Shown: positions 27,305 to 34,205 of the stretch, one piece after another | How the letters are laid out: each line of letters starts with the position of its first letter | How positions within the stretch are numbered: the first letter of the stretch is position 1 | Source: Candidatus Methanophagales archaeon | GTDB lineage: Archaea; Halobacteriota; Syntropharchaeia; Alkanophagales; Methanospirareceae | Direction: 5' to 3' | Length of the DNA: 34,205 nt | NCBI GenBank assembly: GCA_014859735.1 | Contig: JACUTR010000006.1 | Coordinates: 1-34,205, forward strand | The notes under the pieces: model-generated | Told to the model about the DNA's origin: nothing | Database searches by the model: none | What the model saw: only the letters and a program-made list of their open reading frames with translations | Position numbers and translations under genes: made by a program

Positions 27305-29293
27305 ATGGACGAGAACGAATACATAAAGCATTTTGCCGAACTTGTGGAGTTGGAACGAGAGGAAGAGATGCGGCTGCATGAAGAGGAGATGAGAAGATTG
27401 AGCGGACGGGAGCGTGAAGAGAAGGGTCGAGCGTTCTTGAAGCTGAAGGGGAAATCCCAGGGCTTGGGATTGGGAGGAAAGCACTTAGTGCGATTTAGAA
27501 AACAAAACACGGGTTACACCTTACCGGAGAGTGAAATAGAAGTTGGCGACCTGGTTTTGGTGAGTCGAGCGGGCACAGCGCCGTGGGATGAGGACAACCC
27601 GATGGGAACGGTTGCGGAGAGGGCTTTGTATTCGCTTACCGTTGCGTTTGATGATGCGCCACCAGGCTTTGTGTATCGTAAAGACCTTAGAATTGACCTT
27701 TTTGTCAATGACATCACGTTTCAACGGATGATTGGGGCTTTAAAGAGATTTAAACGACTTCCAAGGCTGCGAAGGGATAAATTGCTGGGTACTACGCCTC
27801 CTGATTTCACCGGGATAAAAAGGATAGAATTTTTTAACCCGGAATTGAACAAAAGCCAGCGAGAAGCGGTTTTGAGATGTTTAGCCGCACGAGATTTCTT
27901 CCTCATTCACGGACCGCCAGGAACAGGGAAGACGATAACCTGCGTAGAAGTTATAATGCAACTCTTCACGCGTGGCTATAGGGTTTTAGCTACCGCGGAC
28001 TCGAATGTCGCGGTGGATAACCTGGTAGAGCGATTGGATAAGCTTGGTGTGGACGTCGTGCGAATAGGGCATCCTGCACGTGTGATTCCTTCTTTACGTA
28101 AAAGGAGCTTAGATTATCTGGTTCAGAGTGATCCGGACTATATAAAGGCGCAAGAGCTCAGAAGGAGGGCGTATGAGCTCAAAGAGCGCATGAAAGGGGT
28201 TACCATGCCGGAAATGCGCTGGAGAAGGGGGTTAAGTGATGAAGCGATAATGCAGCTTGCAGGAGAAGGAAGAACAGTACGGGGCATACCGGCGGAAAGA
28301 CTGAGGAGCATGAGGAGATGGCTTACGGTGAAGCAGCGAATCGATAACTTATTCAACACGGCGCGAGGACTGGAAGAGAGTGCGATACAAGGGATTATCA
28401 GTGATGCCGAGGTGATTTGTGCGACGAACAGCACTGCAGGTTCCGAGCTACTCAAAGGCGAGAAGTTCGATTTTGCTATCATTGATGAAGCAACGCAATC
28501 GACCGAGCCTTCTTCTTTGATACCGGTGCTCAAGGCTAAGAGGTTCATCATGGCGGGCGATCACAAGCAGCTCCCACCGACTATTTTGAATGAGGAAGCA
28601 GCGAGCGGTAGTTTGAGCAAGAGTTTATTCGAGCGGCTCCTGGAGTTGTATGGTGACCGGATAAGGGTGATGCTCGAGGTCCAGTACAGAATGAACGATC
28701 TGATAGCGGCATTTCCGAGTGAGGAGTTTTATGAGGGCAAACTGAGGGCTTATGAAGCGGTGAAGAGACGAAATCTTACGGATGTTCTCCCGAAATCGAA
28801 AGAGGGCGAGATTGAGAATGAGGATCTCGAACCACTTTTGTTTATTGACACAGGTGGCAGTGATGAGTTCAGGGAACGGGTGAGAAGAGGTTCCACATCG
28901 AGAGAGAATATAGGAGAAGCGAGATTGGTGAAGGATATTGCGGAACGCTTGTTACGCCTCGGTATAAGACCAGAGGAGATAGCAGTCATATCCCCGTATG
29001 ACGACCAGGTTTCGCTCATTAAATCGATGCTCAAAGTAGAGGGATTGGAGATAAAGACGGTGGATGGATTTCAAGGCAGGGAGAAAGAGGTTGTTATCGT
29101 ATCGTTTGTGAGGAGTAACAGATCAGGTGATATAGGATTCCTCAGGGATTTGAGAAGGCTCAATGTCTCGATAACGAGAGCGAAGAGGAAGTTGGTTTTA
29201 ATCGGTGATTCCAGTACGCTTAAAAGTGAGGGATGTTATAAGCGGCTCATTGAGTCGGCGAGGGAACGAGGCGCGTATAAGAGCGTGGTTTAG
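27305..29293 (+). CDS. SF1B UPF1/IGHMBP2-type DNA/RNA helicase
   Basis: A 662-aa superfamily 1 helicase of the IGHMBP2/Upf1-like (DNA2/NAM7) group, predicted to unwind 5' to 3'. The N-terminal 140 residues form the beta-barrel region (EVGDLVLVSRAG). Motifs in order are Q-type LNKSQREAV, I GPPGTGKT (203-210), Ia-type ATADSNVAVDNL, II IIDEATQST, III AGDHKQLPPT, IV-type QYRMND, V TVDGFQGREKEVV, and VI RLNVSITRAKRKLVLIGD. The extreme N-terminus is highly charged and helical. It is widespread in archaea, where it probably acts in nucleic-acid repair or RNA turnover. No close operon partner. Confidence 0.94.
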   Translation: MDENEYIKHFAELVELEREEEMRLHEEEMRRLSGREREEKGRAFLKLKGKSQGLGLGGKHLVRFRKQNTGYTLPESEIEVGDLVLVSRAGTAPWDEDNPMGTVAERALYSLTVAFDDAPPGFVYRKDLRIDLFVNDITFQRMIGALKRFKRLPRLRRDKLLGTTPPDFTGIKRIEFFNPELNKSQREAVLRCLAARDFFLIHGPPGTGKTITCVEVIMQLFTRGYRVLATADSNVAVDNLVERLDKLGVDVVRIGHPARVIPSLRKRSLDYLVQSDPDYIKAQELRRRAYELKERMKGVTMPEMRWRRGLSDEAIMQLAGEGRTVRGIPAERLRSMRRWLTVKQRIDNLFNTARGLEESAIQGIISDAEVICATNSTAGSELLKGEKFDFAIIDEATQSTEPSSLIPVLKAKRFIMAGDHKQLPPTILNEEAASGSLSKSLFERLLELYGDRIRVMLEVQYRMNDLIAAFPSEEFYEGKLRAYEAVKRRNLTDVLPKSKEGEIENEDLEPLLFIDTGGSDEFRERVRRGSTSRENIGEARLVKDIAERLLRLGIRPEEIAVISPYDDQVSLIKSMLKVEGLEIKTVDGFQGREKEVVIVSFVRSNRSGDIGFLRDLRRLNVSITRAKRKLVLIGDSSTLKSEGCYKRLIESARERGAYKSVV

Positions 29294-30011: not shown

Positions 30012-30671
30012 CTAAATCATCCCCCGCTCCTTCATACTCGTATACCCTTTTGTGGATACGATTACATGGTCGTGCACACGAATTCCCAGAATCTCTCCAG
30101 CTTGCTTCAATCGTCGTGTTATCTCAATATCATCTTTACTGGGTTCTAAATTCCCCGAAGGATGATTATGAACCAGAATAACCGATGCGGCACGGTCTGC
30201 AATCGCGTCTGAAAATATCTCCCGTGGATGCACCTGGTTCACATTCAACAGTCCAACGGTAACCACCCTATTGCCAATCACCTCATTTGCGCCATTTAAC
30301 GTGATGCAGACAAAATGCTCCTGTTTCTTATCCACAATATCGCGTACAAACGGCAGCACGTCAGCGGGAAACGAAATTTTAACGTCTTTTTTACCGAAAT
30401 ACCGGCGTGCAAGCTCGAAACTGGCTAACAGTTGACATGCTTTTGCGGCTCCAATGCCCTCAATTTGCAGTAACTCCTCGAAGCCAATCTTGTCAAGATT
30501 CTCTTTGAATCGCTCCTCAATCTCCGAAGCGACCTGAAGTACGTCTTTGCCTTTGAAGCCCTTGCCAATGAGCACGGCGAGTAATTCGATATCAGAGAGC
30601 GATGAAGCACCACGTTGTATCAATTTCTCACGCGGTTTGTCTATGTCGGGGATTTCGGCGATTTTCTTCAT
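30012..30671 (-). CDS. radC: RadC/JAB-domain protein
   Basis: A 219-aa RadC family protein. An N-terminal helix-hairpin-helix part (LLQIEGIGAAKACQLLASFE, about residues 66-86) precedes a JAB/MPN domain whose metal site reads VHNHPSGNLEPSKDD (HxHx10D), with the Glu probably in NGANEVIGN. The domain has isopeptidase-like architecture. Despite its name a repair role is doubtful in bacteria, and many copies travel with mobile or defence loci. Here its ATG overlaps the HEPN-like gene's stop (ATGA, 30668-30671), so it is translationally coupled to an accessory operon. It is mainly a bacterial family, hence probably transferred. Confidence 0.9.
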   Translation of the reverse strand: MKKIAEIPDIDKPREKLIQRGASSLSDIELLAVLIGKGFKGKDVLQVASEIEERFKENLDKIGFEELLQIEGIGAAKACQLLASFELARRYFGKKDVKISFPADVLPFVRDIVDKKQEHFVCITLNGANEVIGNRVVTVGLLNVNQVHPREIFSDAIADRAASVILVHNHPSGNLEPSKDDIEITRRLKQAGEILGIRVHDHVIVSTKGYTSMKERGMI

Positions 30672-31057
30672 GCTCTCTCATTAGTGGATCCTTGTGCCCA
30701 CGAGATAACACTGAAGGATCTCTTCAAAGAGTCTTCGACTGCTGCTGATAGATTGCTCATAAAATCGTCGTAATCCGCTTGGCTTCTGCGATTTCTCAGC
30801 CGATTTAAATCAACTCCCGCCTGTTTTTCTTCTTCAAAGCTGCTGTCCTGGAGAAAATCACGGATATATCGATGACCCTCAGGCCCGCTAGGAATGCCAT
30901 GTCCTTTGTCAATTAAACATTTTCGTGCTACACAGTAGGCGGCAAAGTATGCTCGGCTAATAGAAGACCGCAACCGAGCCTCCTCATTCGCCGAACTTCC
31001 CTCCTTACCAGCAAGTTCCCGCGCCAGCTTCAAATACTCTGACCAGTCAAAAGTCAT
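30668..31057 (-). CDS. HEPN-domain-like protein
   Basis: A 129-aa all-helical protein. SSISRAYFAAYCVARKCLID matches the SxxSRAYYAAxxxA helix of a common HEPN subgroup, and RNRRSQADYDDF toward the end corresponds to the RNxRxxADY helix of the same group. HEPN proteins include RNase toxins with an Rx4-6H motif; here the last helix lacks a clear Rx4-6H histidine, so nuclease activity is uncertain. It overlaps both neighbours by 4 bp (31054-31057 and 30668-30671). Small HEPN proteins often pair with an antitoxin, here possibly one of the two upstream unknown proteins. Confidence 0.72.
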   Translation of the reverse strand: MTFDWSEYLKLARELAGKEGSSANEEARLRSSISRAYFAAYCVARKCLIDKGHGIPSGPEGHRYIRDFLQDSSFEEEKQAGVDLNRLRNRRSQADYDDFMSNLSAAVEDSLKRSFSVISWAQGSTNERA

Positions 31058-31677
31058 TTGAAGTCGAGATCAATACATATCTTTTTTCGAACATAAGTTG
31101 GAGTATCCAACCACCATTCTTTATCAAGCTGTGAGAGCCTGTTAAAGGCTTCTTCAGGCCGAAGATTTGTATGAATAGAGATGAGCAAATCCTCATCTCC
31201 AGCCTCAGGATCCGTTACAACCTCAAGAAAAACCTTTGAAGATTCCTCAAAATAATTACTAATTTTATCATATGCTTCTAAGAGTAATGGGAAAAGAAAA
31301 GAGTCCTTTACAAGGAAATCATAAACTTCCTCTTCTCTTCGCAGAACGTAAAGCTGCTTCAAACCTCTTAGATCCAAAAATGGATAATTAGATACCGTTT
31401 TATTCCAAAATTCCCCTTGGATTGATTTTATGAGCTGGTTATAAAAATTCGCCAGACTTTCAATTTTGGGGAATTGTTCAGGTCTCACTTCTTGTCTCGC
31501 AAAACGTTGACGAAGCATATAAAAATAAGGAAGGTAAATTAGACTGATTTTTGGTGCTTGGGTGGGAGCTTGAAGATCAGAAGAAGATTCTAGAGATACT
31601 CTAGAGCTAAATAGTTTTGAATCATCTATTGCTGCACTCATTTCTTCGGTTGGCAGTTCTATTGCATCACTGATCAT
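31054..31677 (-). CDS. Unrecognised protein, second gene of the HEPN-RadC operon
   Basis: A 207-aa soluble protein. Residues 1-45 are polar (Ser/Ala/Pro rich) and probably flexible. Then come LIYLPYFYMLRQRF and a helical middle, and a C-terminal alpha/beta part: KVFLEVVTDPEAGDEDLLIS, LRPEEAFNRLSQLDKEWWLD and KKICIDLDFK. The EEAF.RL..LD.EWWLD segment seems familiar from uncharacterised bacterial proteins beside HEPN genes, but I cannot name a family. Overlaps of 4 bp with the genes on both sides mean the four products are probably made in fixed ratio. Confidence 0.7.
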   Translation of the reverse strand: MISDAIELPTEEMSAAIDDSKLFSSRVSLESSSDLQAPTQAPKISLIYLPYFYMLRQRFARQEVRPEQFPKIESLANFYNQLIKSIQGEFWNKTVSNYPFLDLRGLKQLYVLRREEEVYDFLVKDSFLFPLLLEAYDKISNYFEESSKVFLEVVTDPEAGDEDLLISIHTNLRPEEAFNRLSQLDKEWWLDTPTYVRKKICIDLDFK

Positions 31678-32297
31678 TCTTTTTCTCCTAAAGAATAAAG
31701 ATTTTTAAGAATCCTCAGTGAATCGTCATATCTTGTCGAGAAATTTCCTATAAATTGTCTAATATCTTCCAAAGACCGGCCTTTAAGCTCATGATGGAAA
31801 TTGAAATTATTGATAAGGCTATTTTTTTCTTGCGATTCGATAACAAGTTTGAGCACATAAATCGCGCTTCGTGCATAAATTATACCGCCATAATGAACGT
31901 CATGATCTTCGAAAACTGAAAGTAAATCTGTTCCATTTATGTTAACCTCAATTTTGGGCAGGGTCTCACCTTCAGCCATCTCAACACTCCATGTGAAGTT
32001 TAGCCCGAGTGATTGGTATGGAATATGAGGTAACAAATCCACATATTTAGCAGCGAGGTCTGCTAAAGAATTCAATGTTGCATCATCTTGTTTTTTAGCT
32101 GTGATTTGGAGCCGTTGATGATCGACTAATAACGAAAAAGACTCTGATTCAAAGAGAGAAAAATCTGGTGTGTGTACAAAATGTATAGGCTCTTCAAGTA
32201 TCAATGAATTGTCCTTGAGCCACTGCGGAGCTATTATGCTTGGGTTATGAGCCGAGGCTATTATCACAATATCCTTGCGTCTTGGTTTTACCTCCAT
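31674..32297 (-). CDS. Unrecognised protein, first gene of the HEPN-RadC operon
   Basis: A 207-aa soluble protein. The N-terminal part reads KDIVIIASAHNPSIIAPQWL and later LLVDHQRLQITAKK, then LPHIPYQSLGLNFTW; together these suggest an alpha/beta protein with an NP-x-x-x-x-P-x-W-L motif. The rest is helical and acidic (FEDHDVHYGG, RQFIGNFSTRYDD). No family is recognised. The frame starts at GTG 32306, but GGAGGT stands 8 bases upstream of the ATG at 32297. It is the promoter-proximal gene of the four-gene unit; its stop overlaps the next ATG (31674-31677). Confidence 0.7.
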   Translation of the reverse strand: MEVKPRRKDIVIIASAHNPSIIAPQWLKDNSLILEEPIHFVHTPDFSLFESESFSLLVDHQRLQITAKKQDDATLNSLADLAAKYVDLLPHIPYQSLGLNFTWSVEMAEGETLPKIEVNINGTDLLSVFEDHDVHYGGIIYARSAIYVLKLVIESQEKNSLINNFNFHHELKGRSLEDIRQFIGNFSTRYDDSLRILKNLYSLGEKE

Positions 32298-32369
32298 ATT
32301 CTCCACCTCCTCTTTTATTGGTATACAGACCTAATTATTTAAAAGTAACGCTTTTCTCCACCCACCCCA

Positions 32370-32492
32370 TCAAGAATAATCTAACAACGTTTTTGTTTTT
32401 CTCTTAGCGATTTTCTTCTCCTTCCCGTTCTTCGCCCGCTCCTGGTTGATTCGCTTCAATAATACCGATGCAGGCTCTTCATTCGGATCCAT
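32370..32492 (-). pseudogene. hsdS 3'-end remnant (type I restriction specificity subunit)
   Basis: A 40-codon frame beginning MDPNEEPASVLLKRINQERA and ending in a Lys-rich tail. The DPN(D/E)EPASVLL(K/E)RI-x-x-ER stretch is the well-known C-terminal end of HsdS proteins. The two DNA-recognition domains that should precede it are gone; 7 bp upstream is the stop of the GmrSD-like gene instead. GAGAGG before the ATG could permit translation of the short peptide. I read this as a leftover where another gene has replaced most of hsdS. Confidence 0.65.
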
Positions 32493-32499
32493 TACCCTC

Positions 32500-34205
32500 T
32501 CACAGACTCGCGAAGTATGTTTTGATCTTCTGCGCCATTAATTTCCGCCGTTCTTCGAGAAAGGTGTTATAGTCCTCGACGGTCATATTCTCCATGCCGT
32601 CTGGGATGCAGTTCATACCGAAGTTATCTCGTAGCTCGCTGAGATCGGTAATGTTACCATAATACTTCGGTCCACCCTGGCACTGTTCCAAGAGATGCCC
32701 GAAGTAAAGCTTTGGCTCTTTGTTTCCGATGGCGATGTTTATCTCGCTCTGCGCAATGACATAGTTGGCGATCTGGTTGTACTGGCTCCTATTGAGCCCA
32801 CTCCTTTTGAGATATTTACGCGGAAAGAGGTGATGCACATCGGACTTCACCTCAATAAGCTCACGAACGCTAATATCGTGAGAAAGGAATCCGCGATCGT
32901 TCATCTTGACCTGGGCGGCTTGGAAGAGGCGGAAGTACGGGCTTGAAGCTGCTGATGTATTCATCTGTTGCGGCAGCGCGACGTCCCAGAACGCATCTGA
33001 AAGCTCGCCGCGGATGATCGAATCCGCATAGGTCTGAATACCCTGCGAGTGGATTTGGCGGATGTCGCGGTCAAAAGCGGTTTCGGGGGATCCGGAGTAG
33101 CGCCCGGTCAGTATGGACATGACGAACCAGCGGCGCACATATCGTTCGATGTCCGCATTTGGTATGCCCTGAGCACGAAGCGTGAGATAAAGGACATAGG
33201 CAAAGTTCAGTGCGTTCTGAGAGCCGATCATCGATGCATCGACGAATCCTGCGGAGCGGATGATCATGACAAACCGCTTGAAGTGCGTCTCGTTCATGAA
33301 TTGGCTGATCCCCTGCTTGAGACGGGCGAAGGACTCTTCGATAATGGCTTCCTCATACTGCCTCGTCTCGAAGTTACGGCCCGAAAGAAGAGAGACCAGA
33401 TCCTCGAGACGACCACGCTTGAACTCGGAAGTAAAGGCAACGCGGAGCATGTCGGTGTAGGAGGAGTCATAGAGACTATCTTTCTCGTTACGCAGCCAAG
33501 ACATCTGCGAGAAGAACTCGCTCTTAATAAAGTCCTTGTCGTTCTTGATGCCTTGATAAAACTCGGGTGCCACAGCTAGATGGCAGAAGTAGTCGATTGC
33601 CTTACGCAGCGTGTTGCCCCCGTAGGTCTCATTAACCGCTATCTTCGACATCACGAAATCTGCTTGGCTCAGCGGCACGCCCTCTGAGTTGACGCGGATA
33701 AAAATCTCGGTGACGGTTTCACTATCAAGATCAGAGGAAAGTTCGATTAGACCGATATGGTTGCTTGTTATACCGCGCAGGAGTTCAATGCTGCGGAAAA
33801 TGTTGTCTTTGGTTGTTCCGGGATTCCGCTCACAGTAAGCGCTCACGAGATCGAACAAACTAGTCTGGGGATCGAAGACAACTGCGATGTCAGAAATCCA
33901 TGAGACATCCCTTTCGATAGCAGGGTTGGATACCTCGAATTCCTTTCTGCCTGGATGGAAGGCGATACGGATCCGGACCTGCTGGTAGTCCTTGTTCACG
34001 ACCTCACGACCGAGCAGCGACGCCATGAGGGCTGTAACCCGTTGCTGACCGTCGATCAGGATGCGTTTGCCTGAGGATGAAGTGCCGTCCCTCAGCTTCA
34101 CGTCGGGGTTGCGCCACGCGATCAGGTAGCCAACCGGATAGCCATGAAAGAGTGAATCAAGGAATTTACGTACTTTAGTGGAATCCCAGACAAATGGCCG
34201 CTGGA
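32500..34205 (-). CDS. GmrSD-like DUF262/HNH restriction-type protein (5' end outside window)
   Basis: At least 568 residues; the frame is open to the window edge. Sequence before the first in-window GTG (34101) is clearly coding, opening [20 protein letters not shown] and PVGYLIAW. The N-terminal DUF262 nucleotide-binding domain has [16 protein letters not shown] (the DGQQR motif). The C-terminal part carries an HNH-like nuclease motif, [15 protein letters not shown], followed by [21 protein letters not shown], as in DUF1524. Such proteins are modification-dependent or anti-phage NTP-driven restriction systems, GmrSD being the model. Base composition is visibly more GC-rich than the operon downstream, suggesting separate acquisition. 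Confidence 0.88.

Follow-up and report, generated by a model that had tools for sequence, protein, structure and literature searches.

A putative TAC-like tripartite toxin-antitoxin cassette between hsdS and radC of an archaeal type I restriction locus

In TAC systems, an antitoxin with a transferable addiction segment is protected by a SecB-like chaperone, which a phage capsid protein is capable of pulling away (PMC5105189, PMC6377645, PMC11618068). The window, i.e. the whole stretch of 34,205 nucleotides analysed here from a Candidatus Methanophagales archaeon (contig JACUTR010000006.1), contains three chained genes, designated A, B and C, the last of which encodes a HEPN protein. With moderate confidence, these genes are considered to form a tripartite toxin-antitoxin-like cassette resembling TAC, which has been inserted into a type I restriction locus and separates its hsdS from radC.

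A first-pass annotation of this DNA had described four genes at this site, namely A, B, HEPN and radC, linked by three exact ATGA overlaps, and the coordinates on the minus strand (Table 1) confirm both the genes and the overlaps, the A/B, B/HEPN and HEPN/RadC junctions being exact ATGA overlaps in 3/3 cases. The A/B and B/HEPN coupling is seen again in relatives, with overlaps of 4–25 bp. Gene A starts with the ATG at 32297, and is preceded by the ribosome-binding site GGAGGTG (32310–32304) and by an A/T-rich leader of archaeal type. The restriction- or defence-like surroundings proposed in the same annotation are also found, as a gene for a GmrSD_N protein lies upstream of the cassette, while a short ORF encoding the tail of HsdS, absent from the ORF list, sits between this gene and A. 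The G+C content of A and B (31054–32297) is 37%, versus 46–47% for HEPN, RadC and all remaining parts of the window, which may reflect a composite or recent foreign origin of the cassette.

Table 1. Positions of the cassette and of its neighbours in the window.
Feature	Position	Strand	Description
Gene A	31674..32297	-	207 aa; first gene of cassette; no Pfam/NCBIfam family
Gene B	31054..31677	-	207 aa; residues 1–100 predicted disordered, 103–207 folded
Gene C (HEPN protein)	30668..31057	-	129 aa; PF05168 above cut-off
RadC	30012..30671	-	219 aa; PF04002/TIGR00608; neighbour, outside module
hsdS 3'-end remnant	32370..32492	-	40 codons, MDPNEEPASVLLKRINQERAKNGKEKKIAKRKTKTLLDYS followed by stop; matches C-terminus of 496-aa HsdS-like proteins ending at radC in L147 and L174
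Inferred insertion	30672..32369	-	about 1.7 kb, A-B-HEPN and leader, from hsdS stop to radC ATG; 8 bp at equivalent place in L147
GmrSD_N (DUF262) protein	32500..34203	-	open at contig end; PF03235 9.4e-26; PADLOC HEC-05 3.5e-26; neighbour

RadC is identified by its matches to PF04002 (1.2e-42) and, above the cut-off, to TIGR00608 and NF000642, and its JAMM metal site HNHPSGNLEPSKDD is intact in the translation. In the 53 genomes of the order searched, A-B-HEPN was found in five (the window, G035, G047, G027 and G029), one more (G004) has B-HEPN but no A, and RadC is present in 35. Among the A-B-HEPN loci of the order, those of the window and G035 alone have RadC next to the cassette, the copy in G047 being longer, unrelated and encoded on the strand opposite to the cassette. 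Most of the nearest RadC relatives inspected which have a readable flank adjoin type I restriction genes (hsdS/hsdR), the G035 copy being the single one of these relatives next to A-B-HEPN. The G035 proteins are 82–90% identical to those of the window; the HEPN/RadC overlap is lost there, the HEPN gene containing a frameshift and ending 9 bp earlier, and the start codon of radC is lost as well, its ATG reading ATA. The gene order thus rules out RadC as a member of the module, and RadC is a bystander left from the restriction-modification locus.

The first-pass annotation had taken all four proteins as one functional unit, in which the JAB domain of RadC removes a modification or cuts a partner and HEPN is the effector. 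The tight ATGA coupling in the window and the same gene order in G035 speak for such a unit, but it is already largely refuted by the gene order elsewhere and is now very hard to credit: no RadC accompanies the other A-B-HEPN loci examined, bar the opposite-strand copy in G047, the nearest RadC relatives keep company with hsdS/hsdR, and the overlap with HEPN is not kept even in G035. The functional unit therefore stands for A, B and HEPN, which are conserved together in relatives, and not for RadC, so that the JAB peptidase step is left without support. Likewise, the co-occurrence in other genomes which that annotation had named as its own test is observed for the first three genes and not for radC; a chance assembly is rejected for A-B-HEPN and accepted for RadC.

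Two related genomes retain what seems to be the uninterrupted arrangement, as radC starts directly at the end of hsdS in G026 (L147) and G021 (L174). In the window, the final 40 codons of hsdS persist, separated from radC by the cassette, and the same tail is present in G035, as shown by a 50-bp match. As hsdS and radC are separated by 8 bp in L147 versus about 1.7 kb in the window, where the hsdS tail is retained, the simplest account of these sequences is that A-B-HEPN entered a type I restriction locus at the point where hsdS and radC meet. In a further genome (G023, L152), a Upf1-like helicase gene similar to that at 27305–29293 of the window adjoins radC and an hsdR-like gene, and the window's place is therefore probably a syntenic restriction locus. 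Cassettes are often located in restriction loci: a Picosynechococcus copy is flanked by hsdR and hsdS, one on each side, and the G029 copy adjoins an N6-methylase-like gene (named from its sequence alone). Broken remnants of A are present in related genomes (G030:C136 17886–18112, G030:C70 and G024:C88), which suggests that the cassette is frequently lost.

Parsing of 56 A loci gave 32 with a compact A-B-C arrangement and 7 more with A-B; these counts are minimal, as the gene caller missed B in L096 and L102 though C is recognisable there. The three genes of the A-B-C loci are on the same strand, and mostly overlap or lie a few bases apart. A-B-HEPN occurs in Heimdallarchaeota as well. The third gene is toxin-like and encodes HicA (1.2e-5), PIN (4.9e-8 and 2.3e-9), HNH (6.7e-7) or HEPN (5.5e-9) proteins, the last being of three kinds, or aspartyl-protease-like proteins with weak matches (0.0017–0.024), while further families of third genes have no Pfam name, one containing a QGDI motif and another LSVNWLEYF. 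On the tree of A, the 13 partner classes need 14 changes (minimum possible 12, shuffled mean 26), indicating that partners have been swapped, mostly at depth.

The HEPN protein of the window scores 24.5 bits with PF05168, against a cut-off of 22 bits. The catalytic motif Rx4-6H is absent from this protein and its aligned relatives, which instead conserve R91-x3-D95-Y96 and, upstream, H62, the latter in 8/9 aligned rows. In AbiV and AF0298-type proteins Rx4-6H is replaced likewise, and an alternative active site has been suggested (PMC3710099). Judged from its sequence, the window HEPN is plausibly toxic. The absence of Rx4-6H would also be in keeping with A-B-HEPN being no toxin system, with HEPN as a non-catalytic RNA-binding protein that A and B regulate in normal RNA metabolism. 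This explanation is rather improbable, however, as HicA, PIN, MazF or HNH can replace HEPN in the third position, the distribution is patchy with the cassette inserted in restriction loci, and H62 and the R motif are together reminiscent of the alternative site put forward in PMC3710099.

The slot of A can be taken by another family, as TIGR04255 occupies it before B-HEPN in seven archaeal loci and one Thermus plasmid, and also precedes B with QGD proteins and B-MazF (PemK 1.5e-9). None of the A members in alignment A5 matches the TIGR04255 profile at E ≤ 0.1, and hhalign of A against alignment A7 gave a probability of 0.5%, which is not significant; homology between the two families, considered as a candidate relationship, is thus not detectable and was rejected. 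No paper naming TIGR04255 was found in the literature searched. At L193:1495–3102, an elongated B and HEPN follow a third class of first gene, which encodes 220 aa and lacks a Pfam match. The QGD family (WYEIV...QGDI...CP...; C-terminal YREHLSQAFARYFMRVGLP; no Pfam match) is a frequent third gene after A and after TIGR04255 (L077, L101, L102, L103, L128, L137, L138 and L141–L146), and is a toxin candidate.

B has no Pfam match at E ≤ 1, no NCBIfam match, and no fold match at E ≤ 0.001. In the model of the window B, pLDDT is 29–53 in residues 1–100 (below 50 over 1–52) and 70–93 from 103 to 207; the low values, obtained with an alignment of 7 sequences only, indicate that residues 1–100 are likely disordered. 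In HEPN modules, B is 147–207 aa long in the 17 loci that have a first gene, versus 118–135 aa in the 5 loci that lack one, a 73-aa fragment (L194) being set aside, and the two ranges do not overlap (p=3.8e-5, relatedness ignored). In three TIGR04255 loci with first genes 69–74% identical, every pair shows homology over the N-terminal ~95 aa of B (0/2000 shuffles), while the C-terminal ends match only with the same toxin, scoring 99 for the QGD pair and 16–20 across QGD/MazF. The same pattern, though weaker (2/2000 shuffles), is shown by L064/L066, which have A as the first gene. From these natural swaps, the N-terminal half of B goes with the first gene and the C-terminal half with the toxin, and B proteins look like a helper-reading half joined to a toxin-reading half. 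When the N-termini of B from different toxin classes were searched for a shared motif, the best score did not exceed chance (254 versus 234–257 in 12 shuffles).

A belongs to no Pfam or NCBIfam family. A profile search with A found its family in 59 contigs or more, from archaea (ANME-1, ANME-2, Methanosarcinaceae and Heimdallarchaeota) and bacteria (Nitrospirae, Desulfobacterota, Acidobacteria, Planctomycetota, Chloroflexota, Cyanobacteria and others). The AlphaFold2 model of A has a mean pLDDT of 93.4, with a predicted topology of two halves, each consisting of a sheet and a helix, as read from the order of elements. With a 53-row profile, no sequence in PDB was matched at E ≤ 10, and the 50 best PDB fold matches do not include SecB; a SecB fold, expected from the gene layout, was thus not found by sequence or in the top fold matches. 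The closest PDB folds are duplicated alpha/beta and ligand-binding folds, represented by AdoMetDC prozyme (E 3e-4), with PR-10/START-like folds being weaker, and every PDB fold match listed has a TM below 0.4. A good fit (TM 0.73) was obtained with an unnamed viral protein model (A0A515MGR4), and the BFVD matches include a viral TATA-box-binding-protein-like model, while no viral copy of A was confirmed in IMG/VR.

These fold matches bear on an alternative in which the module is likewise a three-part toxin-antitoxin system but A is a sensor of a ligand or phage product, or a promoter co-repressor with B, instead of a chaperone. The ligand-binding character of the closest folds, the TATA-box-binding-protein-like match and the archaeal-type leader before A are all in keeping with it, whereas the low TM values of the PDB matches weaken the comparison, and the correlation of B length with the presence of the first gene points to direct tethering; a sensor or co-repressor is accordingly held to be unlikely, if a more serious competitor than either of the other two.

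Many A genes are solitary, occurring beside pheST-like genes in Nitrospirae and giant surface-protein genes in cyanobacteria, and A is thus not exclusively part of toxin-antitoxin modules. These genes would fit a general helper protein which has been recruited by toxin modules. In several Nitrospirae (L085, L086, L087, L090, L091 and L093) the solitary A is directly behind pheS-pheT-like genes, apparently a stable chromosomal location. The cyanobacterial ones (L048, L051, L052, L056, L057 and L110) precede, on the same strand and within ~400 bp, very large surface-protein genes, whose products include polymorphic membrane protein, Ig, CARDB and S8 peptidase kinds, and L056 contains a second A-like gene between the solitary A and the surface-protein gene.

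In the favoured TAC-like reading, HEPN would be a toxin, probably acting on RNA, and B its antitoxin, of which the folded C-terminal half would bind and silence HEPN while the disordered N-terminal half would be held by A. A would act like the TAC chaperone: as long as it holds B, B would be stable and HEPN off, and if stress or a viral protein removed A from B, B would be degraded and HEPN freed. The chaperone role of A is proposed by analogy, A being unlike SecB in sequence and top fold matches. More tentatively, and with greater doubt than the cassette itself, A, with TIGR04255 as its counterpart, may constitute a new chaperone class, unrelated to SecB and dedicated to its clients, which spans archaea and bacteria; many antitoxins would depend on it via disordered N-terminal tails, and its solitary cyanobacterial forms would serve the giant surface proteins encoded alongside. 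The TAC-like reading offers a candidate role, as guardians of modular antitoxins, for the widespread uncharacterised A family and the unexplained TIGR04255. If it is true, chaperone-dependent toxin control would extend to the four archaeal groups named above, and its range of toxins would go well beyond HigBA, HicAB and MqsRA, the families named for SecB-based TAC. No description of the tripartite architecture was recognised in the literature searched, as judged by titles and abstract openings, and on this basis it is apparently a widespread and undescribed one.

Compared with known systems, the radC of the window is a normal member of the RadC family (PF04002) found beside type I restriction genes, formerly behind hsdS, but has been parted from it by the inserted cassette. 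As in MNT-HEPN (HepT/MntA) pairs, HEPN lies downstream of its putative antitoxin in a tight operon, whereas the window module has no nucleotidyltransferase partner, its B has no Pfam match and its HEPN lacks Rx4-6H. Modules of TIGR04255, a family described as 'sporadically distributed', share the slot before B-HEPN and B with QGD as well as the two-part B, but their first gene has no detectable sequence homology to A. The compact two-gene core also occurs alone, as a short B with HEPN in G004 and on Gloeothece plasmids, like a type II toxin-antitoxin system. The resemblance to TAC, represented by HigBA1-SecB(TA) of M. tuberculosis and CmdTAC, lies in the three genes, in one type of helper serving several toxin-antitoxin families with HicA in both, and in an antitoxin bearing an extra variable segment which goes with the helper. 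In contrast to TAC, A is not a SecB homologue by PDB sequence and the 50 best fold matches, the extra segment is N-terminal in B where the chaperone-addiction extension of TAC is C-terminal, the range of putative toxins is wider (HEPN, PIN, HNH, MazF and aspartyl-protease-like), and archaea are among the hosts.
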